From the NCBI RefSeq assembly GCF_900215535.1, contig NZ_OCND01000003.1, positions 255,737 through 319,736 of the forward strand: a stretch of DNA of 64,000 bases, in the 5' to 3' direction. Made by a program: the position numbers and the translations under genes. Within the stretch, counting starts at the first letter, position 1. Each line of letters begins with the position of its first letter. This stretch comes from Pseudoxanthomonas wuyuanensis. Its GTDB lineage: Bacteria; Pseudomonadota; Gammaproteobacteria; Xanthomonadales; Xanthomonadaceae. The notes beneath the pieces are model-generated. The model was not told the DNA's origin. It ran no database searches and saw nothing but the letters and a program-made list of their open reading frames with translations. Below, one piece after another: positions 28,784-50,033 of this stretch.

Positions 28784-30856
28784 TCAATCGCCGCGCATCT
28801 CCAGATTCAGCGCACGGGCAATGGCTTCCCACGGCACGTACTTGTAGTTCTGGTTCTCCACCGGCATCACGTTGCGCCCGTCCTGCGCAATCATGGCGCC
28901 GTGCTCGAAACCAGGCCCGAGGTTGCGGCTGGTGACGTCAAGGCCGTCGGTCTCGGAGATGCCGTCGATGCCGCGCACCGGGTCGGCGACCACCGAGAAG
29001 GAACCCAGGTATTCCTGCTTGCCTTCGCGCCGGTACACCGCGTAGCTGTCGTTGCCCTGGCTGGAGACCACAAGGTAGCCGCGGCCATCGCCCAGGTCGT
29101 AGAGGCCCATGCCTTCCAGATCGTCCTTGATGGCGGTATTGGCGTCGACGCGGTCGACCGTCTCCTTCAGATCGCCGCCGCCGGGTTCGGCGGACAGCCG
29201 CCACAGCGCGACATCTTCCTCGCCCACATACAGCGCCGCGGTCTCGTCGTCGGCCACGCAACCTTCGGTCTGCGAGTCGAATGTCATGTCGCGTACCAGT
29301 TCCGCGCGCACGCGGCCGTTGCCGGCATCGACCAGTTCCCATTGCCGCTTGCGGGTGTCGTCGCCGTTGATGAAGACGTAGGTGCGCCCGCCGTCCTTGT
29401 GGCGGTACATGCAAAGGCCATAAGGGTCGCCAAGGCCTGTGGGCTGCGGGCCGTCGGCCACGTTCACCAGCAGACGCTTGCCGATGTCCAGGCGGTAGAT
29501 GGCGATGGTTTGGTCGGTACGGTTACTGGCGGTCACCAGGGTGACTTTTTCGCCGCCGAGCATGAAGTCATCGCGCAGGTCGACGTTGTTCATCTTGCCA
29601 TCGGCGAGGAACTGCACGACCTTGCCCTGCATGTCGTAGACGTAAAGCCCGGCCTTCTTGTCGGTGGCGATCACCAGGCTCTTGGCGGGATCGGAAGGAT
29701 GGGCCCAAATCGCCGGATCGTCCGCGGCATCGCCATAGCTTCCGACCGGCGTGGTTTCCACCAGCGCCGTCACCGCGGCGGGCCGGTCGGCCGCCGCGCC
29801 GGAAGCGGCCGGGCCGGGTCCGGCCGCCAGCTTCAACTGCTTTGCGATGTCGGCGAACGACAGCATCTTGTAGTTGGCGCCGTCTTCATCCGTCACCAGC
29901 AGCAATCCGGAAGGGAAGGCTCCGCCTAGCGCCGCGCCGGCGGCGAACAAGGGCCCCGGTTCGCCGATGGCCTGCTTTTGTGCGGGGGCGGCGACCCGGA
30001 AAGCACCGATGAAGGCGTCTTCGCGGTTGCGGTCGTAGACGTTCACGCGGCCGGCCGACACGTCCGAGGCGAGCAGCCAGCGCGCTCCATCGGTGCCGTC
30101 GTACAGCGCCAGGCCGCCGACTTCCTCATCGATGTGACCAAGCCGCGGCGCATCGACCAGCGTGGCGGCGACATCGGCTTCCGGATCGGCGCTGAAGCGC
30201 CAGATGCCCACGGTTTCCTCCGACGCATAGACGTTGCCGAGCGCGTCGGCGACGCATTGCTTCAACGGCGAGGGCAGGTTGATGCGGCGTACCTGGCGGG
30301 CATCCAGCTTTCCGTCCGCGGTGGCATAGATGATCTGCTGATCGATCTCGCCGCCGTCGCCCACCACGAAGGCATACAGCGCGCTGTCCAGCGGGTTGCG
30401 GAACAGGCAGACGCCTTCGGCGGCGAATCCTAGCGGCAACGGCCGCGCACCGGCTTCCATCAGCGAAGCGTCATCGACCGTGAACAGGCGCAGGTGATTA
30501 TGAGTGGTGTCGATGGCCGCGACGACGTCGACCTGGCCACCGGCCAGCGCGATGCCATAGCTGATATCCAATGCCGCCACTTCGCCGGCCGGGACCGAAC
30601 CGATCCGCTTGCCGGCCAGGTCGTACAACTCCAATCCACCCAGCGCCGCGGTGGCGACGATGCGGCTGCGTGCGGCGTCGGAAGGGTGGCGCACGACGAC
30701 CGCCGCATTGGCCTCGCCGGTGGCGGTGGCGTCGGTCTGGGCTACGGCTGCGATCAGCGGCGCGTCGTCTGGATCGCCATTGCCGGCATTCGATGCGCAA
30801 CCGGCAGTTGCGAGCGCTGCCGATACCAGCAGATTGAATAAGAGCCAGGATTTCAT
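28784..30856 (-). CDS. Two-domain beta-propeller phytase lipoprotein
   Basis: A 690-residue lipoprotein: the signal peptide ends in L-A-T-A-G-C, so the protein is lipid-anchored. Two beta-propeller phytase domains follow. The C-terminal one is complete, with D379-D-P-A-I-W at its first blade and N-N-V-D-L-R, the calcium-site motif of the family; it should remove phosphates from phytate (myo-inositol hexakisphosphate). The N-terminal one (about residues 40-330) keeps the blade rhythm and H-P-S-D-A-A-R-S but has lost the D-D-P-A-x-W motif. Such incomplete domains occur in known dual-domain phytases. It is divergent from a TonB receptor, with a shared operator region, and beyond that receptor lie the inositol genes. 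Confidence 0.93.
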   Translation of the reverse strand: MKSWLLFNLLVSAALATAGCASNAGNGDPDDAPLIAAVAQTDATATGEANAAVVVRHPSDAARSRIVATAALGGLELYDLAGKRIGSVPAGEVAALDISYGIALAGGQVDVVAAIDTTHNHLRLFTVDDASLMEAGARPLPLGFAAEGVCLFRNPLDSALYAFVVGDGGEIDQQIIYATADGKLDARQVRRINLPSPLKQCVADALGNVYASEETVGIWRFSADPEADVAATLVDAPRLGHIDEEVGGLALYDGTDGARWLLASDVSAGRVNVYDRNREDAFIGAFRVAAPAQKQAIGEPGPLFAAGAALGGAFPSGLLLVTDEDGANYKMLSFADIAKQLKLAAGPGPAASGAAADRPAAVTALVETTPVGSYGDAADDPAIWAHPSDPAKSLVIATDKKAGLYVYDMQGKVVQFLADGKMNNVDLRDDFMLGGEKVTLVTASNRTDQTIAIYRLDIGKRLLVNVADGPQPTGLGDPYGLCMYRHKDGGRTYVFINGDDTRKRQWELVDAGNGRVRAELVRDMTFDSQTEGCVADDETAALYVGEEDVALWRLSAEPGGGDLKETVDRVDANTAIKDDLEGMGLYDLGDGRGYLVVSSQGNDSYAVYRREGKQEYLGSFSVVADPVRGIDGISETDGLDVTSRNLGPGFEHGAMIAQDGRNVMPVENQNYKYVPWEAIARALNLEMRGD

Positions 30857-30953
30857 TTTTCCTCCCTAATGCATTGGCGGTTGCACCTGCCGTATGGCGA
30901 CGCTTCGGTCCGCGGCGCCAAGATCACACAGCGAAACCCGCTTTGCAAGAGAA

Positions 30954-30979
30954 ATTCCAAATGTGTTGCAATTTGGAAT
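30954..30979. promoter_or_regulatory. Perfect inverted repeat between phytase and TonB receptor genes
   Basis: ATTCCAAAT and ATTTGGAAT are perfect 9-base arms with an 8-base spacer, in the 208-base gap between the divergent phytase and receptor genes. A possible promoter for the receptor (TTGCAA at 30967 and TAATCT at 30989, 16 bases apart) overlaps the right arm, so a repressor bound here would block it. The protein that binds is unknown; the RpiR regulator of the inositol genes is one candidate. Confidence 0.7.
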
Positions 30980-31064
30980 GTTTGTTCGTAATCTCCCGAT
31001 CGAGCCACCCACGGCAGGCAGGACTGCCTGCCCGGCGGCCTACGTCCTCGGGAGGGACTAGACA

Positions 31065-33638
31065 ATGCGGAAGATCCACAGAAATGCGCTGACGGCAGTC
31101 ATTTTGAGCAACCTTGCGATCGTTCCTGGCTATGCGTTGGCCCAGGACGCCACCGTTCCGCCGGTCGAGAGCGGCGATATCACCCAGTTGGAAACCGTGG
31201 AAGTGACTGGACGCCGCGCCGCCGAACGTGCGGCGGTGGACGACAAGCGCTACGCGGACGGTCAGGTGGACGCGATCCGATCCGACGATGTCGGCCGGCT
31301 ACCTGACCAGAACGTGGCCGAAGCCGTCCGCCGCCTGCCCGGCGTCACCAGCGTCAACGACCAGGGCGAAGGCCGCTACCTGACCGTGCGCGGCATTTCC
31401 CCGGAACTGTTGAACGTGACCTTGAACGGGCAGACTGCCGCGGCGCCGGAGCCCGATGGCCGTCAGGTCAAGCTGGACGATATTCCTTCCTCGCTGATCG
31501 GCGCGGTGACGGTATCTAAGACGCTGACCCCCGACATGGACGCCAATGCCATCGCCGGCCAGGTCAACATCGAGACACTGAGCGCCTTCGATCGCAAACG
31601 GACTTTCGGCACGGCACGGGCCGCCTACGGCTACAACGACATCAACAGCGAGCATCCGTTCGAATACGACGGTTCGTTCGGTACCCTGTTCGGCACCGAC
31701 AAGCAGTTCGGCATGGTACTGGCGATCAATCACTCGGACCGCAAGCTCGGCACCCAGAACGTGCAGAATACCGGCGACTGGATCGAGGTCGACGGGCAGA
31801 TGGTTCCCGAAGGCATCGATCTGCGCCAGTACAACACCCATCGGCAGCGCAGCGGTGCGGTGGCCAACTTCGAATGGCGTCCGAACGACCACACCAAGGC
31901 GTTCCTGCGGCTGCTGTACTCGAAATACGAGGATTCGGAAACCCGCGATCGCTTCGGCATCGAGTTCGACGAGGACGGCATCTCGCCGGAGTCGGCCACC
32001 GCCGGCACCTTCACCGACGGTGAAGCGTTCCGCGCCCTGCGCACCCGTGCCGAGAACACCAGCACGTTCACCGCTTCCACCGGAGCCGAGTTCCGTTTCG
32101 ACGACAGCAAGCTGACCCTGGAAGCGACCTACTCGCGAGCCGACAAGCGCGATCCTCACCGCGATGAGTGGGGTTTCGTGCAGGAGGACATTTCCGGCAG
32201 CTACCTGCTGGGCGGTGATCTATACACGGTGACGCCGGACGGGGAGGCGGCGTACGACGCCTCCCTGTACGAACCGGACTTCTACGAGCCCGAATCGCGC
32301 AAGGCGGTGGAGGACCTGTTCCAGCTGCGTGCCGACTATCTGCTGCCGCTGGAGATTGGCGATGGCTCGGACCTGCAGTTCGGCATGAAATATACGCACC
32401 GCAAGAAGACCAACGATGCCAACGGAGAGGTGTGGGAATACGACGATGGCGACCTGGTGCTGGCCGATGTAAGCGGTTCGCCGCTGCGCAGCATATTCGG
32501 CGGACGCTATCGCTTCGGACCCACCATCGACGGCGGTGCCGCGAACGCCTACTTCAACGCCAACACCGGAGAGTTCGAGGAAGATGAGGACGGCACGCTA
32601 AGCACTTCTCTGGCCGCCGATTATTTGATCAAGGAGAAAATCACCGCCGCTTACGTGATGGGAAGACTCCGCTTCGGCGATCTGACCATCATCCCAGGCG
32701 TGCGCGTGGAGCGGACCGAGGGCGACTACGCGGCCAACAGCTTCGAACTTGGCGAGGCTTCGCTGGACCAGGATTTCAATACCTTCGGCAAGCGCAGTTA
32801 TACCGACTGGTTCCCGGGAGTGAATTTCCGCTACGACGTCGGCGAAAACCTGGTCTTCCGCGCCGCCGCCACGCGCGCCATCGGCCGACCCAACTACGAG
32901 TCGCTGGCGCCGTTCGTGGAGATCGAAGACGCGCAGGGCAGCGAACCGGAAGTCACGATGGGCAACCCGGCGCTGGAGCCGCTATATTCGACCAATCTGG
33001 ACATGTCGGCCGAATACTATGTCGGCAACCGCGGCGTGCTGGCGGCGGCGGTCTTCTACAAGAAGATCAAGAACCCGATCTACGAAGTGACCCTCAGCGG
33101 CCAGGACGGCAACTTCGGCGGCGTGGACCTGATCAATGCGGAAGTGGGGACCTGGACCAATGCCGACGAGGCCACGGTCAAAGGCCTGGAGCTCAATGCG
33201 CAGTACGAGCTGAGTTTCCTGCCTTCGCCGTTCGACGGTTTCAACATAAGCGGCAACATCACCTTCGTCGATTCCGAGGCCAGCGGGCTGCCCAGCCGTA
33301 CCGACGCGGTGCCCTTGATCAACCAGGCCGATCGGGTGGCTTCGGCGCAGCTGAGCTATGAGAAGTACGGTTTCTCGGCGCGGCTTGCCTATACCTACCG
33401 TTCCTCGGCACTGGACGAAGCCAACGAAGAGGATCCGGAGGGCGATATCTACCTAGACGATTTCAAGCAATGGGATCTTAAGTTCAGCTACGCCTTCAGC
33501 CCAAGATTCACCGTTTTCCTGGAGGGCTCTAACCTCAACGATGCGGCGATGCGCACCTATGTCGGACATCGCAATCGCCTGGGAGAGAAAGAGATCTACG
33601 GCTGGTCCGCACGGATGGGCGTGCAGCTCACGTTCTGA
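31065..33638 (+). CDS. TonB-dependent receptor next to phytase
   Basis: An 857-residue outer-membrane receptor. The signal peptide ends A-L-A at residue 26, followed by a possible TonB box (L-E-T-V-E-V-T-G-R) and a plug with D-V-G-R-L-P-D-Q-N-V-A-E-A-V-R-R-L-P-G-V, L-T-V-R-G and L-N-G-Q-T. A 22-strand-type barrel follows, ending in V-Q-L-T-F. The plug matches the large Xanthomonas/Caulobacter TonB receptor subfamily. It is divergent from the phytase gene and upstream of the inositol catabolism genes, so it may take up phytate breakdown products. The substrate is inferred from position. A ribosome site (GGGAGGGA) lies 10 bases before the ATG. Confidence 0.92.
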   Translation: MRKIHRNALTAVILSNLAIVPGYALAQDATVPPVESGDITQLETVEVTGRRAAERAAVDDKRYADGQVDAIRSDDVGRLPDQNVAEAVRRLPGVTSVNDQGEGRYLTVRGISPELLNVTLNGQTAAAPEPDGRQVKLDDIPSSLIGAVTVSKTLTPDMDANAIAGQVNIETLSAFDRKRTFGTARAAYGYNDINSEHPFEYDGSFGTLFGTDKQFGMVLAINHSDRKLGTQNVQNTGDWIEVDGQMVPEGIDLRQYNTHRQRSGAVANFEWRPNDHTKAFLRLLYSKYEDSETRDRFGIEFDEDGISPESATAGTFTDGEAFRALRTRAENTSTFTASTGAEFRFDDSKLTLEATYSRADKRDPHRDEWGFVQEDISGSYLLGGDLYTVTPDGEAAYDASLYEPDFYEPESRKAVEDLFQLRADYLLPLEIGDGSDLQFGMKYTHRKKTNDANGEVWEYDDGDLVLADVSGSPLRSIFGGRYRFGPTIDGGAANAYFNANTGEFEEDEDGTLSTSLAADYLIKEKITAAYVMGRLRFGDLTIIPGVRVERTEGDYAANSFELGEASLDQDFNTFGKRSYTDWFPGVNFRYDVGENLVFRAAATRAIGRPNYESLAPFVEIEDAQGSEPEVTMGNPALEPLYSTNLDMSAEYYVGNRGVLAAAVFYKKIKNPIYEVTLSGQDGNFGGVDLINAEVGTWTNADEATVKGLELNAQYELSFLPSPFDGFNISGNITFVDSEASGLPSRTDAVPLINQADRVASAQLSYEKYGFSARLAYTYRSSALDEANEEDPEGDIYLDDFKQWDLKFSYAFSPRFTVFLEGSNLNDAAMRTYVGHRNRLGEKEIYGWSARMGVQLTF

Positions 33639-34052: not shown

Positions 34053-35030
34053 TCACAGCCTTACCGGTTGTCCGCTGAGCACCGATTCGGCCGCGGCTTC
34101 GGCCAATGCCAGTGCGGCTACGCCGTCGGCATAGCCGACCGAAGCCGCCGCGCCCTCCAGCATGTCGGCGAAATGATCCATCTCGCGCCGGTAGGCCTCC
34201 GCGTAGCGGTCCAGGAAGAAGTTCTGGAACCGGTCGGCGGTGGCGCCGGCTTCGCTCCAGACCTGCACGGTGCTTTCGGTGACGTTGTCGGCACGGACCA
34301 TGCCGGCCGACGCATAGGCTTCGATGCGCTGGTCGTAGCCGAAGCCGGAGCGGCGGCTGTTGGCGATCACGCAGATTCGGCCCGATGCGGTCTTCAGCAC
34401 GGTGCGCGCGGTATCGATGTCGCCCAATTTGCCGATTTCCGCATCCACCAGGCAACTGCCGACCGCATAGACCTGTTCCGGTTCCTCGCCCAGCAGCCAG
34501 CGCGCCATGTCGAAATCATGGATGGCCATGTCCTTGAACAGGCCGCCGGATATGGCGATGTAGGCGGGCGGCGGCGGGCCGGGGTCGTTGGAGGTGATCT
34601 GCAGGCTTTCCAGTACGCCGATGGCGCCGCTGTCCAGCCGCGCCTTCAGTGCCTGGAAATTGGGATCGAAGCGGCGGTTGAAGGCGAGCAGCAGCCTGGC
34701 GCCGGCGAGTTGGCCGGCGGCCGCGCGCGCGCGCGCCAGATCCTGGTCGATGGGCTTCTCGCAGAACACGGCCTTGCCAGCGGCGGCTGCGCGCAGGCTG
34801 TAGTCCAGGTGGGTGTCGGTGGAACTGGCGATGATGATCCCCGCGATGGTGTCATCGCCGAGCGCCTGCTCCAGGCTGAGCACGGGGACCTGCCATTCCT
34901 GCGCCAGCGTGCGCGCCGAGGCTTCGACCGCATCGACGACGCCGGCCAGTTCGATGCGCGGGTGCAGTGCGGCGTTCCTGGCGTGGATGCGGCCGATGCG
35001 GCCCGCGCCGATAAGGGCGACTTTATGCAT
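34053..35030 (-). CDS. iolG: Gfo/Idh/MocA dehydrogenase, inositol 2-dehydrogenase type (copy 1)
   Basis: A 325-residue NAD-dependent dehydrogenase. The Rossmann start is A-L-I-G-A-G-R-I-G, followed by C-E-K-P-I-D with the lysine used in catalysis, and a segment G-G-L-F-K-D-M-A-I-H-D-F-D-M with the conserved aspartate and histidine. This set is typical of myo-inositol 2-dehydrogenase, the first step of inositol catabolism (inositol to scyllo-inosose). It is the distal gene of a two-gene minus-strand unit, with 64 bases to its paralogue. The paralogue is a clear relative along the full length. One of the two may act on scyllo- or D-chiro-inositol; the sequence cannot say which. Confidence 0.9.
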   Translation of the reverse strand: MHKVALIGAGRIGRIHARNAALHPRIELAGVVDAVEASARTLAQEWQVPVLSLEQALGDDTIAGIIIASSTDTHLDYSLRAAAAGKAVFCEKPIDQDLARARAAAGQLAGARLLLAFNRRFDPNFQALKARLDSGAIGVLESLQITSNDPGPPPPAYIAISGGLFKDMAIHDFDMARWLLGEEPEQVYAVGSCLVDAEIGKLGDIDTARTVLKTASGRICVIANSRRSGFGYDQRIEAYASAGMVRADNVTESTVQVWSEAGATADRFQNFFLDRYAEAYRREMDHFADMLEGAAASVGYADGVAALALAEAAAESVLSGQPVRL

Positions 35031-35094: not shown

Positions 35095-36084
35095 TCAGTG
35101 CAGCCCGATGGCGGTGCCGGCATCCAGCGAAGCCTGGCACGCCTCGGCCAGGACCAGTGCCGCGATGCCATCGTCATAGCCGATCAGCGGAGTGGCATGC
35201 CGGCCGACGACATCGGCGAAATGATCGATCTGAGCGCGATAGGCTTCGCCGTAGCGCTCAGCGAAGCCGGGGTGGATGGGAGCGGCGAAGGTGCCGCCTT
35301 CGGTCAGCGTCTGCACGGTATCCGGCCGCGCGTTGGCGGCGGTGAGCATGCCGGTCGAGCCGAAGGCTTCGATGCGTTGGTCGTAGCCGTAGCCGCTGCG
35401 CCGGGTGTTGGAAATGACGCACAGGCGGCCGGACGCGGTCTTGAGCACGGTACGCGCGGTGTCGACGTCGCCTTGGCGGCCGATGTCAGGATCCACCAGA
35501 CAGCTGGCGGAAGTGAACACCTGCACCGGTTCCTCGCCCAGCAGCCAGCGCGCCAGGTCCAGGTCATGGATGGTGAAGTCCTTGAACAGGCCGCCGCTGG
35601 TCGGCACGAAACCCGCAGGTGGCGCGGCCGGATCGTGGTTGATCAGGTGCAGCGTTTCCAGCCGCCCGATCTCGCCCGCATCCAGGCGCCGTTTCAACGT
35701 CAGGAAGTGCGGGTCGAAGCGGCGATTGAAGCCCAGCAGGAAGGGGGCACCCGCCAGGCGCGGGCGCGCTTGCCGCGCCTTGCGCAGATCCAGGTCGATG
35801 GGCTTCTCGCAGAACACCGCCTTGCCTGCCGCCGCCGCGGCCAGCGTGTGCCCCAGATGCTGGTCGGTGGAACTGCAGATCAGCACGCCGGCGACCGCGG
35901 GATCGGCCAGCGCCTGTTCCAGTGGGGCGGTTTCGGCAGCCAGGCGGCAGGCCAATGCCTGCGCCGCATCCGGTCGCGGGTCGACCACGTATTTCAGCCG
36001 CAGCGCAGGGTGCCCGGCGGCGTTGGGGCCATGGATCTGGCCCATCCGTCCGGCACCGATCAGGGCCACGCAGATTCGTTCCAC
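35095..36084 (-). CDS. iolG: Gfo/Idh/MocA dehydrogenase, inositol 2-dehydrogenase type (copy 2)
   Basis: A 329-residue paralogue of the neighbouring dehydrogenase, with A-L-I-G-A-G-R-M-G, C-E-K-P-I-D-L and G-G-L-F-K-D-F-T-I-H-D-L-D-L. Many blocks are identical between the two (W-L-L-G-E-E-P, D-T-A-R-T-V-L-K-T-A-S-G-R), pointing to a tandem duplication followed by divergence. It is the first gene of the minus-strand unit and is divergent from the rpiR-type regulator gene. The 144-base gap between them contains a candidate operator. It should oxidise myo-inositol or a close isomer with NAD in the cytoplasm. Confidence 0.9.
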   Translation of the reverse strand: MERICVALIGAGRMGQIHGPNAAGHPALRLKYVVDPRPDAAQALACRLAAETAPLEQALADPAVAGVLICSSTDQHLGHTLAAAAAGKAVFCEKPIDLDLRKARQARPRLAGAPFLLGFNRRFDPHFLTLKRRLDAGEIGRLETLHLINHDPAAPPAGFVPTSGGLFKDFTIHDLDLARWLLGEEPVQVFTSASCLVDPDIGRQGDVDTARTVLKTASGRLCVISNTRRSGYGYDQRIEAFGSTGMLTAANARPDTVQTLTEGGTFAAPIHPGFAERYGEAYRAQIDHFADVVGRHATPLIGYDDGIAALVLAEACQASLDAGTAIGLH

Positions 36085-36146
36085 AATAGGCTCCGATGGC
36101 AGGGTAGGCTGCCAGATTGGAATTTATGTTCTTTTTTATATTGCAA

Positions 36147-36157
36147 TAGAATTTCTA
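36147..36157. promoter_or_regulatory. Candidate operator TAGAATTTCTA upstream of iolG/iolR
   Basis: A perfect 5-1-5 inverted repeat in an AT-rich stretch between the divergent dehydrogenase and regulator genes. Related AGAATAT/TTCT elements occur before iolC (37119) and before the transporter (44189), which points to one regulator. The RpiR protein encoded here is the likely binder, by analogy with IolR of other proteobacteria. Confidence 0.5.
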
Positions 36158-36228
36158 AAGCAATACCTTCCCATTCCATCGACCCGAACGCCGGCCCCGC
36201 CGGCCGGGCACAACCAAGGAGCGGCTGC

Positions 36229-37098: not shown

Positions 37099-37118
37099 AA
37101 TGAATGTTGCTTTTATGA

Positions 37119-37132
37119 AGAATATAGAATAT
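37119..37132. promoter_or_regulatory. Candidate operator upstream of iolC
   Basis: Two direct copies of AGAATAT lie in the 88-base AT-rich gap between the regulator and iolC. The same half-site forms a palindrome at 44189. This is probably the control site for iolCDEBA, by inference only. Confidence 0.4.
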
Positions 37133-41856: not shown

Positions 41857-42665
41857 TGCCGCAGCTACGCGTTCGCCCGCATGCGCCGGACCATACCGGT
41901 ACCGTACTGGAAGTGACGCCGGCCAGCGCGGGCTGGCGGCACGTCGGTTTCAAGGTGCTGCGCCTGCAACCCGGCGAAAGCCACGCGGACACGCTCGCAG
42001 GCCGCGAAGCCTGCCTGGTGCTGGTTGCCGGCACCGCGGACATCAAGGTGGGCGAGGATACGTTCGCCGGTCTGGGCGGGCGCGCCACGCCGTTCGAAGA
42101 TCGGGCGCCGGGCGCGGTCTATGTGCCGGCCGGAGTCGCTTTCGAAGTCACCGCCAGGACCGCGCTTGAGCTGGCCGTGTGCAGCGCGCCTGGCACGGGC
42201 GCGGGACACGCACGCGCGATCGACGCCGCGCGGATGTCGCGCGAAGTGCGCGGCAGCGATACCAATACCCGCTACGTGCGCAACATCCTGCCGGAGACCG
42301 AACCGGCCGAAGGCCTGTTGGTGGTGGAAGTCATCACGCCCGGCGGCCACTGGTCCAGCTATCCGCCGCACAAGCACGACACCGCCACGGCCGGGCAGGA
42401 AACGCTGCTGGAGGAAACCTACTACCACCGCATCCAGCCGCCGCAGGGCTTCGCCATCCAACGCGTCTATACCGACGACCGCTCGCTGGACGAAACCATC
42501 GCGGTGGAGGATGGCGACGTGGTGATGGTGCCGTGCGGCTACCACCCGGTCGGCGCGCCGCACGGCTACGACCTGTACTACCTCAACGTGATGGCCGGGC
42601 CCGAGCGGCGCTGGATCTTCCGCAACGATCCGGCCCACGACTGGATCGTGCGCCAGCAGCGCTGA
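41856..42665 (+). CDS. iolB: IolB, 5-deoxy-glucuronate isomerase
   Basis: A 269-residue protein of the bicupin IolB family, which isomerises 5-deoxy-D-glucuronate to 5-dehydro-2-deoxygluconate. The metal-binding segment is clear: S-Y-P-P-H-K-H-D followed by L-L-E-E-T-Y-Y-H-R and later M-V-P-C-G-Y-H-P-V-G-A-P-H-G. The length is normal. The start overlaps the iolE stop by one base, and iolA follows 21 bases later. Confidence 0.96.
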   Translation: MPQLRVRPHAPDHTGTVLEVTPASAGWRHVGFKVLRLQPGESHADTLAGREACLVLVAGTADIKVGEDTFAGLGGRATPFEDRAPGAVYVPAGVAFEVTARTALELAVCSAPGTGAGHARAIDAARMSREVRGSDTNTRYVRNILPETEPAEGLLVVEVITPGGHWSSYPPHKHDTATAGQETLLEETYYHRIQPPQGFAIQRVYTDDRSLDETIAVEDGDVVMVPCGYHPVGAPHGYDLYYLNVMAGPERRWIFRNDPAHDWIVRQQR

Positions 42666-42686: not shown

Positions 42687-44186
42687 ATGCGCACTATCGA
42701 ACATTTCATCGGCGGCCAAGCGGTGGCCGGGACTTCCGGCCGTCACGGCGAGGTTTTCGACCCCAACATCGGCCAGGTGCAGGCGCGCGTTGCGCTGGCC
42801 TGCTGCGAAGAACTCGAACGCGCCGTCGCCAATGCGGCCGAAGCGCAGCAAGCCTGGGCGCAGACCAATCCGCAGCGCCGTGCGCGGGTCATGTTCGAGT
42901 TCAAGCGCCTGCTGGAAGCGCATATGGACGAACTGGCCCGGTTGCTGTCCAGCGAGCACGGCAAGGTCATCGCCGATTCCAGGGGCGACATCCAGCGCGG
43001 CCTGGAAGTCATCGAATTTTCCTGCGGCATTCCGCACCTGCTCAAGGGCGAATACACCCAGGGCGCCGGTCCCGGCATCGACGTGTATTCGGCGCGCCAG
43101 CCGCTGGGCGTGGTCGCCGGCGTCACTCCGTTCAATTTCCCGGCGATGATTCCGATGTGGATGTTCGGCCCTGCGATCGCCTGCGGCAATGCGTTCATCC
43201 TCAAGCCTTCCGAACGCGATCCATCGGTGCCGGTGCGGCTGGCCGAACTGATGATCGAAGCCGGCCTGCCGCCGGGCGTGCTCAACGTCGTGCATGGCGA
43301 CAAGGACATCGTCGAAGCCATCCTGAGGCATCCGGGTATCAAGGCGGTCAGTTTCGTCGGGTCCTCGGACATCGCGCAGTCGGTGTATGCGCTGGGCGCG
43401 CAGCACGGCAAGCGCGTGCAGGCGATGGGTGGGGCGAAGAACCACGGCATCGTGCTGCCCGATGCGGATCTGGACCAGACCGTCGCCGATCTGATCGGCG
43501 CCGCCTACGGCTCGGCGGGCGAACGCTGCATGGCGTTGCCGGTGGTCGTCCCGGTCGGCGAGGAAATCGCCGATGCGTTGCGGGAAAAGCTGGTCGCGGC
43601 GGTGAAAGGCCTGCGCATAGGCGTTTCCACCGATGCGCAGGCGCACTACGGACCGGTGGTCACCGCGGCGCACCGTTCGAAGATCGAGTCCTACCTGCAG
43701 ATGGGCGTCGACGAGGGCGCCGAACTGGTCGTCGACGGGCGTGGATTTTCGCTGCCCGGGCACGAAGGCGGCTTCTTCCTCGGTCCCAGCCTGTTCGACC
43801 GCGTCACTGCGGATATGAAGACCTATCGCGAGGAGATCTTCGGTCCGGTGCTGCAGATCGTGCGTGCGGCCACCTTCGAGGAAGCGCTGGCGCTTGCGTC
43901 CAGGCACCAGTACGGCAACGGCGTGGCCATCTTCACCCGCAACGGCGACGCCGCGCGCGAATTCGCCGACCGCGTCGAGGTCGGCATGGTCGGCATCAAC
44001 GTGCCGATCCCGGTGCCGGTGGCCTACCACAGCTTCGGCGGCTGGAAGCGTTCGGGCTTCGGCGACCTCAACCAGTATGGGCAGGACGGCGTCCGCTTCT
44101 TCACTCGCACCAAGACCGTCACCCAGCGCTGGCCGAAAGGCGGGGCGGTCACCGATCAGAGCTTCGTCATTCCGACCATGCGGTAA
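42687..44186 (+). CDS. iolA: IolA/MmsA, malonate-semialdehyde dehydrogenase (acylating)
   Basis: A 499-residue CoA-acylating aldehyde dehydrogenase that turns malonate semialdehyde into acetyl-CoA, or methylmalonate semialdehyde into propionyl-CoA. The catalytic Cys281 sits in G-S-A-G-E-R-C-M-A-L-P, the motif specific for this subfamily. N-terminal F-I-G-G and the F-N-F-P-A-M-I-P-M-W cofactor loop are present. It is the last step of the pathway encoded by iolC, iolD, iolE and iolB before it. It is followed by an AT-rich gap carrying a candidate operator for the transporter gene. Confidence 0.95.
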   Translation: MRTIEHFIGGQAVAGTSGRHGEVFDPNIGQVQARVALACCEELERAVANAAEAQQAWAQTNPQRRARVMFEFKRLLEAHMDELARLLSSEHGKVIADSRGDIQRGLEVIEFSCGIPHLLKGEYTQGAGPGIDVYSARQPLGVVAGVTPFNFPAMIPMWMFGPAIACGNAFILKPSERDPSVPVRLAELMIEAGLPPGVLNVVHGDKDIVEAILRHPGIKAVSFVGSSDIAQSVYALGAQHGKRVQAMGGAKNHGIVLPDADLDQTVADLIGAAYGSAGERCMALPVVVPVGEEIADALREKLVAAVKGLRIGVSTDAQAHYGPVVTAAHRSKIESYLQMGVDEGAELVVDGRGFSLPGHEGGFFLGPSLFDRVTADMKTYREEIFGPVLQIVRAATFEEALALASRHQYGNGVAIFTRNGDAAREFADRVEVGMVGINVPIPVPVAYHSFGGWKRSGFGDLNQYGQDGVRFFTRTKTVTQRWPKGGAVTDQSFVIPTMR

Positions 44187-44188
44187 AT

Positions 44189-44199
44189 AGAATATTTCT
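44189..44199. promoter_or_regulatory. Candidate operator AGAATATTTCT before the transporter gene
   Basis: A perfect 4-3-4 inverted repeat (AGAA-TAT-TTCT) just after the iolA stop, close to a second palindrome, TTTC-TATG-GAAA, at 44205-44216. These share the half-site of the elements before iolR and iolC, so the transporter may have its own promoter under the same regulator. Confidence 0.5.
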
Positions 44200-44290
44200 T
44201 CCATTTTCTATGGAAATGAAATAGGCTGTCCGGGCAGGCAGGCCAGCGGCAAATGGGTCGGCCGGATCCAAGCATTCCTGGGAGGGAATC

Positions 44291-45637
44291 GTGACGGGTG
44301 GAATCCTGAAGTTCTTCGCAACGGGCACCAATGTTCCGCCGCTGGGCGATCGCGCGCAGATCGACATCCTGTTCAAGAAATACCGTTTGCGGGTGATGCT
44401 GGCCATCACCCTGGGTTACGGGTTGATCTACACCTGCCGGCTGGCGCTGGGGGTGGTCAAGAAGCCGTTGATCGACTCGGGCGTGTATTCGCCCAGCGAT
44501 CTTGGCCTGATCGGTTCGGCGCTGTTTTACACCTACGCCATCGGCAAGCTGACCAACGGCTTCCTGGCCGATCACGCCAACATGAAGCGCTTTCTGGCCT
44601 TCGCGTTTCTGGCCACGGCGTTGTGCAACCTGGCGATGGGCTTCACCACCGCGTTGTGGGCGGCGGTGCTGTTATGGGGCTTGAACGGCTGGTTCCAGAG
44701 TTTCGGCGCGCCGGGGGGCGTGGTGGCGATGACCGCGTGGTTCTCCAACAAGGAGCGCGGCCGTGCCTATGGCATCTGGAGCACCGCGCATTCGATAGGC
44801 GAGGGCCTGACGTTCCTGGTGGTGGGGGCGGCGGTGGCGGCATGGGGCTGGCGGATTGGGTTCTGGGGGCCGGGGCTGATCGGCATGGTTACCGCAGCCG
44901 GCGTGTGGATGTTGCTGCAGGATCGTCCGCAGACCCTGGGTCTGCCCAATGTCAACGACTGGAAACACGACCGCTATCAGGAAGCGGAGAAGCCGCATCT
45001 GAAATCGGTGCTGGCGTTGCAGCTTTCCATCCTGAAGATTCCGGCGATCTGGGTGCTGTGCCTGGCCAGCGCCAGCACCTATGTCACCCGCTACGCCATC
45101 AACTCCTGGGGCATCCTGTACCTGCAGGAAGAACGCGGATTCAGCCTGCCGATGGCCGGCACGCTGCTGATGACCAGCACGCTGGCCGGCATCGTCGGAG
45201 CGGTGGCGTTCGGTTTCATTTCCGACAAGCTGTTCGATGCGCGCCGCCCGCCGGCCAACCTGCTGTTCGGGATACTCGAGCTGATCGGCCTGCTGCTGAT
45301 CTTCTTCGGGCCCACCAGCATGCCGGCGCTGATCGCGGGCATGCTGCTGTTCGGCATGGGGCTGACCGGCCTGGTCACCTCGTTGGGCGGACTGTTCGCG
45401 GTCGACATCGCGCCCAACCGGGTGGCCGGCGCAGCGATGGGCGTGATAGGCATCTTCAGCTACATCGGCGCGGGCATCCAGGAGCAAATCTCCGGCGCGT
45501 TGATCCAGAAGGGCATGATCGTGGCCGGCGATGTCCGCACGTATGATTTCGGGCCGGCGATCTGGTTCTGGATCGGTTCGTCGGTGCTTTCCATCCTGCT
45601 TGCCACCAGTCTGTGGCGCACGCGTCGCCGGGATTGA
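44291..45637 (+). CDS. MFS transporter, organophosphate:phosphate antiporter (OPA) type
   Basis: A 448-residue inner-membrane transporter with about twelve helices. It has the OPA-family layout: an N-terminal F-K-K-Y-R-L-R-V segment before helix 1, Y-T-C-R-L-A-L-G-V-V-K-K (the GlpT/UhpT-type basic motif), and G-L-N-G-W-F-Q-S-F-G-A-P with the family W-F-Q-S/G motif. Known members exchange sugar phosphates or glycerol phosphate for phosphate. In this locus it takes the place where iol operons usually carry an inositol permease, so it may import inositol monophosphate; that is inference. The GTG start is supported by GGAGGG 8 bases upstream. Confidence 0.88.
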   Translation: MTGGILKFFATGTNVPPLGDRAQIDILFKKYRLRVMLAITLGYGLIYTCRLALGVVKKPLIDSGVYSPSDLGLIGSALFYTYAIGKLTNGFLADHANMKRFLAFAFLATALCNLAMGFTTALWAAVLLWGLNGWFQSFGAPGGVVAMTAWFSNKERGRAYGIWSTAHSIGEGLTFLVVGAAVAAWGWRIGFWGPGLIGMVTAAGVWMLLQDRPQTLGLPNVNDWKHDRYQEAEKPHLKSVLALQLSILKIPAIWVLCLASASTYVTRYAINSWGILYLQEERGFSLPMAGTLLMTSTLAGIVGAVAFGFISDKLFDARRPPANLLFGILELIGLLLIFFGPTSMPALIAGMLLFGMGLTGLVTSLGGLFAVDIAPNRVAGAAMGVIGIFSYIGAGIQEQISGALIQKGMIVAGDVRTYDFGPAIWFWIGSSVLSILLATSLWRTRRRD

Positions 45638-45734: not shown

Positions 45735-46547
45735 ATGCTCGTACCTTCATCCGATCTGCAGGCGATGATCGAGGCCGCGCAAGCGGCCGGCGCCGGCCTG
45801 CAGCGACACTTCGGCCAGCTGGCCGAACTGGCCATCCGCTCCAAGAGCGGTCCTGCCGACCTAGTTTCCATTGCCGACGAAGAAGCCGAGCGAACCTGTC
45901 GCGCGCTGTTGGCCAAGGCGCAGCCGGCCTATGGCTTCCTGGGCGAAGAAGGCGGCGCGTTCGGCGGCAGCGACGATGCGCAGACCTGGATCGTCGATCC
46001 GCTCGACGGCACCACCAACTTCCTGTTCGCCTGCCCGCTGTGGGGCGTCAACATCGCGTTGGCGCGCGAAGGGGAGGTCGTCGCCGGCGTCACCTACCTG
46101 CCGGCCGTCGACGAAATGTACGTGGCCGAACAAGGCAAGGGCGCCTGGCTCAACGGGCAGCGCATCCGGGTATCGCAGCGCGGTGCGTTGATCGACGCAG
46201 TACTGGCCTGCGGCATTCCCTTCGCCGGCAAGCCGGATCACCCGCTGTTCGCGCGCGAGATGGCGCTGCTCAGCGCGCAGGTGGCCGGCATCCGCCGCAC
46301 CGGCGCCTGCGCGGTCGACATGGCGTGGGTGGCGGCCGGACGCTGGGATGCGTACTGGGAACGTGCGCTCAACGTCTGGGACATGGCGCCGGGGGTGATC
46401 CTGGTGAAGGAGGCCGGCGGCGTGGCGACCTCGGCCACCGGCAGCGTGCTCGATCTGCACGGCCAAAACGTCTGCGTGTCGAACGGCGCGGTGCACGCCG
46501 CGCTGATCGAAACACTAAATGCCGCATTGGAGAATCCCGCCGCATGA
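45735..46547 (+). CDS. Inositol monophosphatase family phosphatase
   Basis: A 270-residue cytoplasmic phosphatase of the inositol monophosphatase (SuhB/histidinol-phosphatase) family. The metal-site residues are visible: G-E-E-G-G, D88-P-L-D91-G-T-T-N-F, and W-D-M-A-P-G near residue 216. There is no signal peptide, so it works inside the cell. The OPA transporter is 97 bases upstream and PhoD overlaps downstream by 4 bases. In this setting the simplest role is freeing inositol from inositol monophosphate that has been imported. Other family members act on fructose bisphosphate or histidinol phosphate. Confidence 0.9.
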   Translation: MLVPSSDLQAMIEAAQAAGAGLQRHFGQLAELAIRSKSGPADLVSIADEEAERTCRALLAKAQPAYGFLGEEGGAFGGSDDAQTWIVDPLDGTTNFLFACPLWGVNIALAREGEVVAGVTYLPAVDEMYVAEQGKGAWLNGQRIRVSQRGALIDAVLACGIPFAGKPDHPLFAREMALLSAQVAGIRRTGACAVDMAWVAAGRWDAYWERALNVWDMAPGVILVKEAGGVATSATGSVLDLHGQNVCVSNGAVHAALIETLNAALENPAA

Positions 46548-48007
46548 AGACGCCCCGCCGCACCTTCCTGAAAAGCACCGGCCTGGCCGCGCTGTTCTCA
46601 TTCGTTCCGCGTAGCTGGGCCGGTGTGCTGGGCTATCCGCGCGCGCTGCAAGGGCCGATGATCGGCGCACCGGGTCCGCATCATTTCACCGTATGGGTCC
46701 GCGCCAGCGGCGCGTTCGAGGTGACGCTGGAATATTCCACAGACCGCGAGTTCAAGACGGTGCTGCAGGGAGCCCGCGCGACCGCGAAGACGGAAAGCGA
46801 CTGCTGTGTGGTGCTGCGTGCCGAGGGCCTGCAGCCGGATACGACCTACTGGTACCGGCTGAAATACGCGGGCGAAACCGACCGACACCAGTTCCTGCCG
46901 CAGCGGACACGGACCGCACCGGCCGGCGCGGCCGATTTCCGCGTTGCCTTCGGCTCCTGCTGCCGCATCCAGTTCGACCCGGATCAGCGCATCTGGAACG
47001 CGGTGCGCGGACTGGAGCCGGACATGTTCTTCTGGCTGGGCGACAACATCTACGCCGACAGCGATCAGCGTGCCGCGCTGGTGGACCTGTACGGCCGCGG
47101 CCGCACGGTCGAGCGGCTGGAGCCGCTGTTGCGTTCCACGCCGCAACTGGCGACCTGGGACGACCACGATTTCGGCTACAACGATTCCGACGGCCACAGC
47201 CCATACAAGGCCGAATCGCTGCAGGTGTTCAAGAATTTCTGGGCCAATCCCGGCTATGGCGAAGCCGGCAATCCTGGCGTCTATTTCAAGCAGCACTACG
47301 GTGGCGTGGACTTTTTCGTGCTCGATGGCCGTTACCACCGCGACCGCACCGACAAGACCGACGACGCCGGCAAGACCATGCTTGGCGCTGTGCAGAAGGC
47401 CTGGCTGAAGCGCGAGCTGAAGGCCAGCCGCACGCCGTTCAAGGTGTTGGCCATCGGTGGCGGCTGGTCGACGGCGGAGAACGAGAAGGGCGGCGATTCC
47501 TGGGGCGTCTACCTGACCGAACGCGATGAGATCTTCGATTTCATTCGCGACAACGGCATCGGCGGCGTGGTCTGCATCTCCGGCGATTCGCACATGGGCG
47601 AACTCAACTGCATCCCGCGCTCGCAACAGGGCGGCTACGACATCTACGATTTCTGCTCTTCGCCGCTGGCGCAGATGCCGGCCAACAAGAACACCCGGCA
47701 GGCGCCGGAAGTGCGCGTGCGCGACACCTGGACACGCAGCGTCAATGTCGGCCTGATGCGCTTCGACATGACCGGCGACAAGCCAACGCTGACCTATACA
47801 CTGCACGATGTGCTGGGCGAGTCGGTGTGGGAACCGCTGGTGCTGACTCCGGAGGATCTACGCAATGGTGTCAGTACCTGGGAGAGCAAGAGCGATCCGG
47901 TGGAACTGCAGCGGCTGGAACGGTTCAAGCGCGGCGGCGGCTACTACGGCCAAGACGTGCCCGAAGGCTGGCCTAGCCGCCCGTACTACGACGGAAGCTC
48001 AGACTGA
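46544..48007 (+). CDS. phoD: PhoD-family alkaline phosphatase, Tat-exported
   Basis: A 487-residue metallophosphatase exported by the Tat system: the N-terminus has K-T-P-R-R-T-F-L-K-S-T followed by a hydrophobic stretch. An N-terminal PhoD-type Ig-like domain precedes the catalytic fold, which shows F-G-S-C-C, W-L-G-D-N-I-Y-A-D, T-W-D-D-H-D-F-G-Y-N-D and S-G-D-S-H-M-G-E. Phosphatases of this kind remove phosphate from mono- or diesters in the periplasm. It overlaps the phosphatase gene before it by 4 bases, and its 3' end overlaps the convergent TonB receptor gene by 35 bases. Confidence 0.92.
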   Translation: MKTPRRTFLKSTGLAALFSFVPRSWAGVLGYPRALQGPMIGAPGPHHFTVWVRASGAFEVTLEYSTDREFKTVLQGARATAKTESDCCVVLRAEGLQPDTTYWYRLKYAGETDRHQFLPQRTRTAPAGAADFRVAFGSCCRIQFDPDQRIWNAVRGLEPDMFFWLGDNIYADSDQRAALVDLYGRGRTVERLEPLLRSTPQLATWDDHDFGYNDSDGHSPYKAESLQVFKNFWANPGYGEAGNPGVYFKQHYGGVDFFVLDGRYHRDRTDKTDDAGKTMLGAVQKAWLKRELKASRTPFKVLAIGGGWSTAENEKGGDSWGVYLTERDEIFDFIRDNGIGGVVCISGDSHMGELNCIPRSQQGGYDIYDFCSSPLAQMPANKNTRQAPEVRVRDTWTRSVNVGLMRFDMTGDKPTLTYTLHDVLGESVWEPLVLTPEDLRNGVSTWESKSDPVELQRLERFKRGGGYYGQDVPEGWPSRPYYDGSSD

Positions 48008-50033
48008 AATAGCCGGGACTGTTGCGATCGCGCCGCTCGACTTCCTCTATCGGGGAACTCGAACGCGGGCCGTCGTACTTCTGGCGGATCTCGCGGAAAT
48101 CGCGCCCGCCGATATCGGTCGCTTCCGCACGCACACGCCAGCGCTGGCCGATGCGGCGCTCGATGAAGACTGTCCAGCCGCTGTCTTCCGACTCGCGCGA
48201 GATCTCGTCGAAGCGGTACTTGCTTTCGCGCTCGGCAATGTGATCGAAGCCGATGCCCCAGTGCATACGCAATGCCGGCAAATCCTGGGTCAGCGACACG
48301 CTGGCCTCCACCGGCTTCTCCTTCGAAATGGAACGCCGCTGCCCGGTCGTCGGATCGGTCACGCGGCTCCTGCGCCACAGCATCGACGAGCGCAGATGCG
48401 CGCCGTTGAATCCGAACCGATCCAGCGGAGCGGACAGATCGAACGCCAGCGTGTCGCGCTGCCCGTCGCCGATATTGCCGGGCGCATCGAAAACCTCGCC
48501 GTCGGCCGCGGTCACCAGCACCCGATCGACCGCGTCGGAAATGGCGTCGTGGGTCCAGCGCAGGGTGATGGCCGCGTCGGTCGGGAAGCGATGCTCCCAC
48601 GCCGCCGCCAGGCGCCAGCTCTTGTCCGGCGCAAGTTCCGCGTTGCCGGCGGTCACCACGCCGCTGTCCAGCGAGGCGGAGGCGACGAAATCCTCGAAAT
48701 CCAGTTGCCCCACTTCGCGCGACAGCGACAGCCGCAACTGGTTGCGGGCGTCGGCTTCCCAGCGCAGCGCAACGCGCGGCTTGGGGTAGGTGAAGCGGCG
48801 CTTCAGCGGACTGTCGCCGGTTTGCGAGATGGCCGAATCCTCGACCCGCAAGCCGGCCTCGGCCATCCACCGCTCGGCAAAACGCCAGCTCGCGCCGGCC
48901 GCCGCTTCGAAGCGTCTTTCCTCGATGCGTACGTCCGAACCGGGAAGGAACACTGGCATGCCGTCCTCCTCGAGCCGGGTATCGCTTTCCAGGAAATTGA
49001 ATGCGCCTTCCAGCGAGGCGCTGAGCGACCAGGTTTCCGACCATTCGTGGGTCAGGTCGATGCGGCCGATGCTTTCGCCGGTGTCGGTGCGCTGGGCGAA
49101 GTTCTCCGAATCGCCGCCTTCGCGCGATCGCTCTTCCGCATCCAGCCACCCCAGGCGCTGGCTGGCCACCGCTTCCAGCGTAGTGCGCTTGCCGATCTGA
49201 CGCACGTAACGGGCACCGACCTCCGCCTCGAGCAGGTCTTCGCCCTCGTCGATGATTTCGTCTGGATCCCCGGAATCGGCGGCACCGATTCGGGTATCGG
49301 TCCTTGCGCGCTCGCTGCGTACCGCACCGGTCAGGGTCAGTCGCCCGCCGGCCACGGGCTGCCGCCAGCTCGCGCTGATTTCGCCTTCGTCCTTGAGCGC
49401 ACGCGTGTCGGTCCGACGCTTGTCGATGAGTGCGCCGTCCGGCAAGAACGTGCATATGCGCCCGCGGCCGCTGTCATCGTCCAGCGCGGGCGCGAATGCC
49501 AGCGCGAGATCCAGCGCACGGCCTTCCCAGCGCCGGCCGTACTCCAACTGCGCGGAAGGGGCGATCCAGCCATCGGGGGAAGCGACGAAGCCGGCTTCAA
49601 GCGCCGCTTCGGTGACGGCATCGCGGCGCCGGATCACGTTGGCCAGGACCGGGTGCCCCGCCATGTCGATGCCGCTGGCGCCGCTGCGTATCAGTTCGAT
49701 GCGTTCGACCGAAGCTGCCGGTATGCGCTTGAGCAACTGGCCGGTGTCTTCGCGTTTGCTCGCCGGATGCGCGCCATCGATAAGCACATTGCCCTGAGCG
49801 GCCGAGTAGCCGCGAACGTCGGCAACGGCTTCGATGATGGCAAAACCCGGCAGGCGCAGGACCATGTCGTAGGCGTTCGCGGGCGCTACACCCGCAAAGA
49901 ACTCCTTGCCGTATGCGCTGATGGCCGGTTCGCCAACGGAGCCGGGCGCCTGCGCCCGGACCGGCATTGCCAGCGCAGCGCAGGCCAGCGCCACCAGGCT
50001 GATTCGCAACGTTCCCACCGCGTTCTGCATCAT
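47973..50033 (-). CDS. TonB-dependent receptor (outer membrane, compact plug)
   Basis: A 686-residue outer-membrane receptor. The signal peptide ends V-R-A at about residue 27, a short plug has L-P-G-F, V-R-G-Y, V-L-I-D-G and I-E-L-I-R-S-G (TonB receptor plug blocks), and the barrel ends Y-F-S-L-S-F-R-R-S-T-G-G, with extra residues beyond the usual terminal F. No clear TonB box is seen. It converges on phoD with 35 shared bases and has a divergent PepSY/two-component set on the other side. The substrate is unknown; the phosphatase context hints at a phosphorylated compound. Confidence 0.88.
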   Translation of the reverse strand: MMQNAVGTLRISLVALACAALAMPVRAQAPGSVGEPAISAYGKEFFAGVAPANAYDMVLRLPGFAIIEAVADVRGYSAAQGNVLIDGAHPASKREDTGQLLKRIPAASVERIELIRSGASGIDMAGHPVLANVIRRRDAVTEAALEAGFVASPDGWIAPSAQLEYGRRWEGRALDLALAFAPALDDDSGRGRICTFLPDGALIDKRRTDTRALKDEGEISASWRQPVAGGRLTLTGAVRSERARTDTRIGAADSGDPDEIIDEGEDLLEAEVGARYVRQIGKRTTLEAVASQRLGWLDAEERSREGGDSENFAQRTDTGESIGRIDLTHEWSETWSLSASLEGAFNFLESDTRLEEDGMPVFLPGSDVRIEERRFEAAAGASWRFAERWMAEAGLRVEDSAISQTGDSPLKRRFTYPKPRVALRWEADARNQLRLSLSREVGQLDFEDFVASASLDSGVVTAGNAELAPDKSWRLAAAWEHRFPTDAAITLRWTHDAISDAVDRVLVTAADGEVFDAPGNIGDGQRDTLAFDLSAPLDRFGFNGAHLRSSMLWRRSRVTDPTTGQRRSISKEKPVEASVSLTQDLPALRMHWGIGFDHIAERESKYRFDEISRESEDSGWTVFIERRIGQRWRVRAEATDIGGRDFREIRQKYDGPRSSSPIEEVERRDRNSPGYFSLSFRRSTGG

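Follow-up and report, generated by a model that had tools for sequence, protein, structure and literature searches.

We analyzed a 64,000-nucleotide stretch of the Pseudoxanthomonas wuyuanensis genome (RefSeq assembly GCF_900215535.1, contig NZ_OCND01000003.1, positions 255,737 to 319,736; hereafter, the window), in which genes for phytate hydrolysis, inositol catabolism, and a transporter of the organophosphate:phosphate antiporter (OPA) family adjoin one another in what we call the island. An original prediction, made from the letters of the DNA, had placed a phytate-to-central-metabolism block at positions 28784 to 50033, and profile searches recovered all of the genes that it named there, including the divergently oriented phytase lipoprotein and TonB receptor. 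The phytase (28784 to 30856, minus strand; PF02333, 476 bits in two stretches) has a leader ending in ATAGC, which is the basis for calling it a probable lipoprotein. It departs from what had been proposed in having two propeller domains, which share 28% identity, with catalytic motifs in the C-terminal one only. Residues 361 to 683 match the Bacillus 3-phytase structure 1poo at 280 bits, and in this alignment the C-terminal domain is intact, with the conserved Bacillus beta-propeller motifs DDPAIW, NN.D.R, EED.A.W, SSQGN, and TDG in place. The N-terminal domain, in contrast, is degenerate and has lost most of them; DDPAIW and NN.D.R are found in the C-terminal domain alone. The divergent TonB-dependent receptor (31065 to 33638, plus strand) scored 622 bits against TIGR01782 (cut-off, 310).

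The inositol genes begin with two copies of inositol 2-dehydrogenase, iolG/idhA, on the minus strand (34053 to 35030 and 35095 to 36084; TIGR04380, 400 and 366 bits; cut-off, 355). On the plus strand, a regulator of the RpiR family with HTH_6 and SIS domains (36229 to 37098) adjoins iolC, as in the regulon of the RpiR-type protein IolR. Here iolC (37187 to 39121; NF047869, 775 bits; cut-off, 600) encodes a kinase fused to a DUF2090 aldolase, and it is followed by iolD (39122 to 40966; TIGR04377, 931 bits; cut-off, 715), iolE (40963 to 41856; TIGR04379, 375 bits; cut-off, 290), iolB (41856 to 42665; TIGR04378, 331 bits; cut-off, 205), and iolA, a CoA-acylating methylmalonate-semialdehyde dehydrogenase (42687 to 44186; TIGR01722, 664 bits; cut-off, 448.5). 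Packing from iolC to iolA is tight (no gap, two overlaps, and then 21 bases). We chose the starts of the first idhA, rpiR, iolE, and the genes for the inositol monophosphatase (IMPase)-family enzyme and PhoD described below within longer reading frames. Both copies of iolG and iolE, -D, -B, -C, and -A thus exceed their family-model cut-offs, in agreement with the G, E, D, B, C, J, and A set listed in the original prediction. The J step, however, is probably performed by the DUF2090 portion of the fused IolC and not by a separate gene, in which case no gene of the pathway would be missing.

A candidate importer and its companion phosphatase

The OPA protein (44291 to 45637, plus strand), a member of the major facilitator superfamily, matched the glycerol-3-phosphate transporter structure 1pw4 (GlpT) at 162 bits, and its predicted model (predicted local distance difference test score, 84.6) has GlpT as its top fold match, with a template modeling (TM) score of 0.82. 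Residues Y38, Y42, R45, K80, H165, and R269 of GlpT, which we take to be its phosphate-site residues, are all present and are invariant across 20 orthologs, including two solitary copies found away from any island. The two proteins nevertheless share only 25% identity, and GlpT K46 and E299 are replaced here by Leu and Thr, respectively. Altogether, residues and model support a predicted function in phosphate-coupled organophosphate transport; the genomic context suggests that the substrate would be inositol monophosphate, and we propose an inositol-phosphate:phosphate antiporter. Its top-scoring NCBIfam family is the hexose-phosphate receptor UhpC, at 266 bits, which is below the cut-off of 564.

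Downstream lies an IMPase-family phosphatase in which no leader was seen (45735 to 46547, plus strand; PF00459, 206 bits; SuhB/IMPase structures, up to 227 bits). Its reading frame overlaps that of a PhoD-type phosphatase (46544 to 48007, plus strand; PF09423 and PF16655) with the twin-arginine leader RRTFLK. An IMPase-family gene lies at most about 3 kb from the OPA transporter in 20 of 20 transporter-bearing islands, at 33 to 37% identity in a set of four divergent islands that we label f7. The island genes in the window encode no carrier other than the OPA protein, and no inositol ATP-binding cassette (ABC) or IolT-type carrier adjoins the enzymes there. Among 98 iolD or phytase loci (80 named loci and 18 others), a sugar-ABC binding-protein family was found in 35, none of which has the OPA transporter (L006, introduced below, is counted here among transporter loci). 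This family was therefore seen in no transporter-bearing locus; IolT-type carriers were not searched for in relatives.

Co-occurrence of phytase, transporter, and inositol genes across genomes

We compared the locus with two samples of genomes (G numbers; loci bear L numbers, with L001 and L002 from the window's own genome), one of 250 genomes from the same order as P. wuyuanensis and one of 249 from the order of Caulobacter sp. Root343, scoring the transporter as present at ≥55% identity. In the first sample, where we set the line for a full phytase at >200 bits against PF02333, iolD exceeded its cut-off in 26 genomes and a full phytase was found in 19, while any PF02333 match occurred in 34. 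Only nine of the 250 genomes have both a full phytase and an over-cut-off iolD, and in all nine the two are separated by 0.9 to 28.5 kb. The OPA transporter was present in 10 genomes, namely these nine plus G055, and absent from the remaining 240. In G055, phytase and iolD are on different contigs, iolD being a fragment at a contig edge, and this genome is not among the 26 iolD genomes. A distant OPA protein (31 to 33% identity) was found in five further genomes.

The second sample, with phytase called at E ≤ 1e-20, contained iolD in 16 genomes, phytase in 139, and both in 13. Phytase lies within about 9 kb of iolD in nine of these 13 (G250, G303, G317, G353, G388, G457, G372, G488, and G256), and the transporter was present in six of the nine, compared to none of the seven other iolD genomes. 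Across the 42 iolD genomes of both samples, the transporter accompanies 15 of the 18 with a phytase nearby and none of the 24 without (Fisher P = 8e-9, which ignores kinship and serves as a guide only). Those 18 comprise 9 of 26 genomes at up to 28.5 kb and 9 of 16 at up to about 9 kb; considering position only and ignoring kinship, the probability of such co-location by chance is <1e-16 in each sample. Named genomes of Pseudoxanthomonas, Caulobacter, Sphingomonas, and Sphingopyxis share a core set of phytase, iolG, rpiR, iolCDE, transporter, and IMPase. Comparison of gene order in relatives had been suggested at the outset as a way to overturn the block if it proved not to be conserved; with phytase near iolD in 18 of 42 genomes and a recurring core set, the block stood.

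The f7 islands (L084, L085, L086, and L088) have the same content in another order, together with an exported metallophosphatase; no match to histidine acid phosphatase or PhoD was found in the four. Solitary transporter genes occur at L134, L135, and L146 to L151 (G438, G309, and G373), and by eye, those of G309 and G373 adjoin NADH-dehydrogenase-like and ABC-F-like genes. Several phytase reading frames in the second sample contain one in-frame stop, reflecting either a pseudogene or read-through past the gene end. The L006 contig (Phenylobacterium sp. SCN 69-14) differs from L005 (Rhodanobacter sp. 67-28) by 5 mismatches in 13,025 bases; one of these bins probably contains the other's DNA, and L006 was excluded before counting.

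Predicted IolR-type operators in island promoters

We scanned the window with an operator profile trained solely on 48 sites from the rpiR, iolC, and idhA promoters of loci other than this one. The seven highest scores in the 64 kb all fall in four island promoters. Upstream of iolC, the best predicted site (37123 to 37142, 26.0 bits) lies beside a weaker one, ranked seventh (37094 to 37113, 14.9 bits); the second-best is upstream of the transporter (44186 to 44205, 24.2 bits), and the third and fourth occupy the idhA/rpiR promoter (36116 to 36135, 22.8 bits, and 36140 to 36159, 18.8 bits). The divergent phytase/receptor promoter holds the fifth (30942 to 30961, 18.3 bits), with similar sites in relatives, and the sixth (30972 to 30991, 16.5 bits), which is near-identical in L003, L005, and L090/G185. 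The next-best score elsewhere in the window is 12.5 bits, compared to 14.9 for the seventh island site. The exact Caulobacter crescentus operator, GGAA-N6-TTCC, has no match in the window, while sites with one mismatch cluster in island promoters (30945, 30975, 36119, and 44189). Over the whole window, one-mismatch sites are not clearly enriched (22 against 15.5 expected, with 7 of 100 shuffles reaching 22), and we take the signal to be the location of the sites in island promoters.

Similar sites are predicted at phytase promoters in other genomes. When each locus was left out of its own profile, 17 of 20 testable phytase promoters reached P ≤ 0.05 against AT-matched windows; 23 were tried, and G185, G055, and G035 had too few matched control windows to yield a P value. 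Those that missed were L007, L010, and L021, of which L007 had its start mis-set by alignment and scores 17.2 with another start. By the same measure, transporter upstreams reached P ≤ 0.05 in 11 of 20 loci, and phoD and short-receptor upstreams, both assigned by tblastn, did so in 1 of 13 each, the phoD set being a soft control as it is mostly coding. In a separate scan, with a profile that was not leave-one-out and a 12-bit line of our own setting, iol-linked phytase promoters scored above 12 bits in 19 of 25 cases and unlinked ones in 0 of 19, the highest of the latter reaching 11.6 (Mann-Whitney P = 3e-5; Fisher P = 2e-7). The unlinked phytases were picked by hand, mostly from high scorers, in genomes without an over-cut-off iolD (6 of 9 in the first sample and 13 of 126 in the second). 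Six linked promoters fell below the line (L005, L083, L087, L010, L100, and L162); for L005, L083 (G001), and L087 (G170), where the gene start is probably mis-called, sites were found in the other scan.

A degenerate pattern built from the window's sites, and hence partly circular, has two exact matches in the window's own genome, both in the island (upstream of iolC and of the transporter), and matched 13 rows compared to 4 for a reversed control. Outside the island, an operator-like site with one mismatch lies upstream of a GntR-like regulator gene (G000 contig C10:171905-171920; L174), for which no tie to inositol was found. Upstream of the window's phytase there is no Pho box by the Escherichia coli consensus (best match, 6 of 14 positions mismatched; shuffles, P = 0.997). 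Pho-box-like sites occurred at 5 of 19 unlinked and 2 of 25 linked phytases, a contrast that is not significant (P = 0.21) and that we do not use as proof.

Altogether, the predicted operators support co-regulation of phytase, receptor, catabolic operon, and transporter. With nothing resembling a Pho box before the window's phytase, this predicted regulation points to carbon more than to phosphorus.

Evolutionary history of the island

In a tree of IolC and IolD, the Caulobacter-order genomes G457 and G303 cluster with the main islands of the Gammaproteobacteria and away from every other locus (bipartition support, 1.0), which suggests that the island was transferred between classes. The f7 islands occupy a distant branch near loci without phytase, and this position, combined with their different gene order, suggests that they were assembled separately. 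In a midpoint-rooted tree of the transporter, two solitary copies group with G388 and G353 (support, 1.0) inside the linked clade and look like leftovers of islands or later moves.

A proposed route from phytate to central metabolism

Phytate is one of the chief forms in which plants and soils store organic phosphorus, and interest in phytases has usually centered on their use as phosphorus tools. It has one phosphate per carbon, far above cellular need. We propose that the surface phytase and TonB receptor would capture phytate, with partly dephosphorylated inositol phosphates passing to the periplasm, and that exported phosphatases (the beta-propeller phytase, PhoD, and a histidine acid phosphatase in this genome or in relatives) may trim them toward inositol monophosphate. 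The OPA transporter, given its retained phosphate-site residues, could then bring in inositol monophosphate while letting out phosphate, and the IMPase-family enzyme, as its family suggests, would release inositol in the cytoplasm. From there, IolG, -E, -D, -B, -C-DUF2090, and -A would convert inositol to dihydroxyacetone phosphate and acetyl-CoA by the established pathway. A single palindromic operator, predicted to be the target of the RpiR/IolR-type regulator, would place phytase and receptor under the same control as the catabolic operon and the transporter. An antiporter suits the use of phytate as a carbon source because phytate is over-rich in phosphate, and antiport would admit the ring without net phosphate. 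We put the probability that this is a phytate catabolic island driven mainly by carbon, with inositol phosphate imported by phosphate antiport, at roughly 65%. The use of phytate for both phosphorus and carbon had been proposed in the original prediction; conservation of the block and the predicted operators lend support to that proposal, with the regulatory evidence favoring carbon over phosphorus. A broader proposal is more tentative, and we rate it at somewhat less than even odds: that the OPA clade is a dedicated inositol-phosphate:phosphate antiporter of carbon-use phytate islands under an inositol repressor instead of phosphate control, assembled at least twice (in the main clade and in f7) and handed from class to class as one unit.

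Several observations weigh against this proposed route or limit it. Outside the island, the genome of P. wuyuanensis encodes a single strong match to Sugar_tr as well as a sugar-binding protein of the ABC type, which might import free inositol. A sodium:solute symporter stands alongside the OPA transporter in G007, G035, and G181, and one is carried by three of the four f7 islands; L021 has such a symporter and, within the fetched stretch, no OPA transporter, and an RbsC-like permease lies near the island in G457 and G303. Phytase is near iolD without the transporter in three of the nine second-sample genomes (G256, G372, and G488), and three of the nine transporter-bearing genomes of that sample (G309, G373, and G438) have neither phytase nor iolD. 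No iolA homolog was seen in the stretches from G388, G353, and G317, and the f7 iolB is divergent. In C. crescentus, the phytase belongs to the PhoB regulon (PMC11208175) and is under UrpR (PMC8963506). Finally, the main IolC and IolD clade includes L026, a locus with neither phytase nor transporter, and therefore, the link to phytase and transporter can be lost or gained.

Some of these points suit a reading in which the substrate of the OPA protein is a different organophosphate, be it glycerol phosphate, hexose phosphate, or a product of glycerophosphoinositol, or in which the protein acts as a UhpC-like sensor, with inositol entering by another carrier: UhpC is its top NCBIfam family, island-less copies exist, and the genome holds other candidate sugar carriers. 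Yet the UhpC score is under the cut-off, the distribution of the protein is tied to phytase and iol genes with an IMPase gene close by in every island, the two solitary copies placed in the tree nest within the linked clade, and a predicted inositol operator precedes the gene in the window, so that we regard this reading as unlikely, if well worth keeping in mind. Somewhat less likely still is an island for phosphorus scavenging, in which phosphatases and receptors supply phosphate and the inositol pathway merely consumes the leftover ring. Such a role would explain five phosphatase-family genes in 28 kb and has parallels elsewhere, as the available text of the respective reports places the C. 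crescentus phytase in the PhoB regulon (PMC11208175) and describes a Flavobacterium phytase and TonB receptor induced by phosphate depletion (PMC8115612). Here, however, the phytase has two predicted inositol-type operators and no Pho-box-like site, such operators were found at none of the unlinked phytases examined (the Pho-box contrast itself being weak), and a phosphate antiporter would bring no net gain of phosphate.

It is also conceivable, at long odds, that receptors and the PepSY and two-component genes described below handle metal-phytate complexes, with nutrition secondary. Caulobacter sp. Root343 (L007) has a similar two-component system next to its island, the model of the short receptor resembles PhuR, FecA, and OprC, and in C. 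crescentus, according to the available text of PMC8963506, UrpRS (CCNA_01362/01363) answers uranium and regulates the phytase CCNA_01353, to which it is close by locus number. This likeness to UrpRS concerns two-component type and position, though, many TonB receptors match the short-receptor model about equally, and such a role would leave both the inositol pathway and its predicted operators unexplained. That unrelated modules stand side by side by chance might be argued from the different gene order of f7 and from the 28.5 kb between phytase and iolD in G185, but the co-location in both samples, the matching content of the rearranged f7 islands, and the shared predicted operator leave this reading with hardly any probability, and the distribution already contradicts it.

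If the carbon-driven route is correct, such bacteria would release phosphate from phytate for the sake of carbon, a point of relevance to phosphorus release in soil and to the choice of agricultural strains. The genomic signature of phytase, OPA transporter, IMPase, and iol genes would then serve as a predictor of growth on phytate, and the island offers a cheap and concrete test case for an inner-membrane inositol-phosphate carrier.

Comparison with described systems

The closest parallel to the catabolic part is the inositol module of C. crescentus, which in the available text of PMC2597717 comprises idhA, iolR, and iolCDEBA (CC1296 to CC1302) under IolR control at a GGAA-N6-TTCC operator. 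The window has the same enzymes in the order idhA/iolR/iolCDEBA, with the regulator beside iolC and a predicted palindromic operator. In C. crescentus, however, free inositol is taken up by the ABC system ibpA-iatA-iatP, encoded at another locus and reported as the sole inner-membrane inositol transporter (PMC2597717). From locus numbers, the C. crescentus phytase CCNA_01353 (PMC8963506, as far as its text was available) seems to lie close to this module; the word phytase occurs once in PMC2597717, in a reference.

Phytase adjoins a TonB receptor in Citromicrobium (PMC3400609) and Flavobacterium (Fjoh_1367/1368; PMC8115612), as it does here, but the available text of these reports is silent on an OPA transporter, an inositol operator, or an operon for inositol catabolism, and the Flavobacterium pair is phosphate regulated. 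Conversely, the clusters of the IolCatGC survey share the complete iol gene set with the window, whereas the available text of the survey does not mention TonB and names phytase twice, unlinked to the clusters (PMC9430895). GlpT and SLC37 antiporters resemble the window's OPA protein in fold and, for GlpT, in the six residues named above; sequence divergence from GlpT, the replacement of K46 and E299, and a context of inositol and not of glycerol or hexose set the OPA protein apart. UrpRS of C. crescentus is likewise a two-component system, close by locus number to a phytase that it activates (PMC8963506 and PMC10133563, in their available text), but it is described as a uranium sensor, whereas the module here stands with a short receptor and a PepSY protein in a phytate island. 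In isolates from the pig gut, the available text of PMC12838507 reports no conserved neighborhood around phytase genes, and that of PMC4070688 describes some bacteria growing on phytate as sole phosphorus and carbon source. Outer-membrane phytate systems coupled to their own catabolic operon had been called little described in the original prediction, and in agreement with this, we found no description of a phytase-OPA-IMPase-iol island, of its operator wiring, or of the predicted importer in the open-access literature, subscription papers lying outside this coverage. The parts are of known kinds; their coupling and the proposed importer look new.

Right-hand extent of the island and neighboring genes

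The block proposed at 28784 to 50033 is present, but its end had been set too early. A short TonB-receptor-like protein (47973 to 50033, minus strand) has a weak Pfam barrel and plug, and its model (predicted local distance difference test score, 81.9) matches TonB receptors such as PhuR, FecA, and OprC at TM scores of 0.5 to 0.6; the fold comparison indicated no ligand. Beyond it, on the plus strand, lie a PepSY-domain protein (50090 to 50470; PF03413, 41.5 bits), which adjoins the response regulator in relatives too, an OmpR-type response regulator (50470 to 51132; profile match), found at 68 to 89% identity in 10 island loci, and a sensor histidine kinase (51129 to 52490; HATPase_c, 50 bits). 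The islands of G001, G185, G170, G457, G303, and L007 also carry the short receptor together with the PepSY and two-component genes. In G242 they lie about 16 kb from the IMPase gene, in L008 they are at the opposite end of the island, and L009 has the PepSY and two-component genes without the short receptor, while the fetched stretch of L004 ends just past the response regulator. None of these genes turned up in the stretches fetched for G388, G353, G317, L010, and the four f7 islands, apart from receptor matches at 36% in G388 and G353. The PepSY/two-component module (50090 to 52490) is thus part of the conserved block in many relatives, and the block runs to 52490.

Next to the island, on the minus strand, stands a second phosphate-ester module (53374 to 60789). 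It encodes an exported endonuclease/exonuclease/phosphatase-family protein with a jacalin-like lectin domain (53374 to 54732; PF22669, 52 bits; PF01419, 67 bits), an exported AppA-phytase-like histidine acid phosphatase (54783 to 56096; PF00328), a TonB receptor with a signaling (STN) domain (56170 to 59013; PF07660; TIGR01782, 755 bits), a FecR-type protein of uncertain start (59178 to 60332; PF04773), and a FecI-type extracytoplasmic function sigma factor (60148 to 60789; Sigma70 r4_2 and r2). By sequence, the histidine acid phosphatase is nearest to solved histidine acid phosphatases and phytases, with 4aro (195 bits) ahead of AppA (1dkl, 163 bits), and it scores 236 bits against the NCBIfam AppA family (cut-off, 585). 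In the fetched islands of relatives, the lectin protein had no match and the histidine acid phosphatase none above 33% identity; receptors weakly similar to the STN receptor reach at most 40%, the highest in L021, and the interval between idhA and phytase in G185 contains two receptor-FecR-FecI sets of weak similarity. Because these islands showed no close relatives of the set, we class it as a neighbor of the island and not as a member. A different histidine acid phosphatase lies within or at the edge of nine islands (L003, L004, L005, L007, L009, L010, G001, G185, and G242) and is missing at the corresponding place in the window. To the left of the phytase, genes for a PAP2 phosphatase, an EptA-type phosphoethanolamine transferase, and a glycosyltransferase (24917 to 28373) look like envelope genes unconnected with the island.

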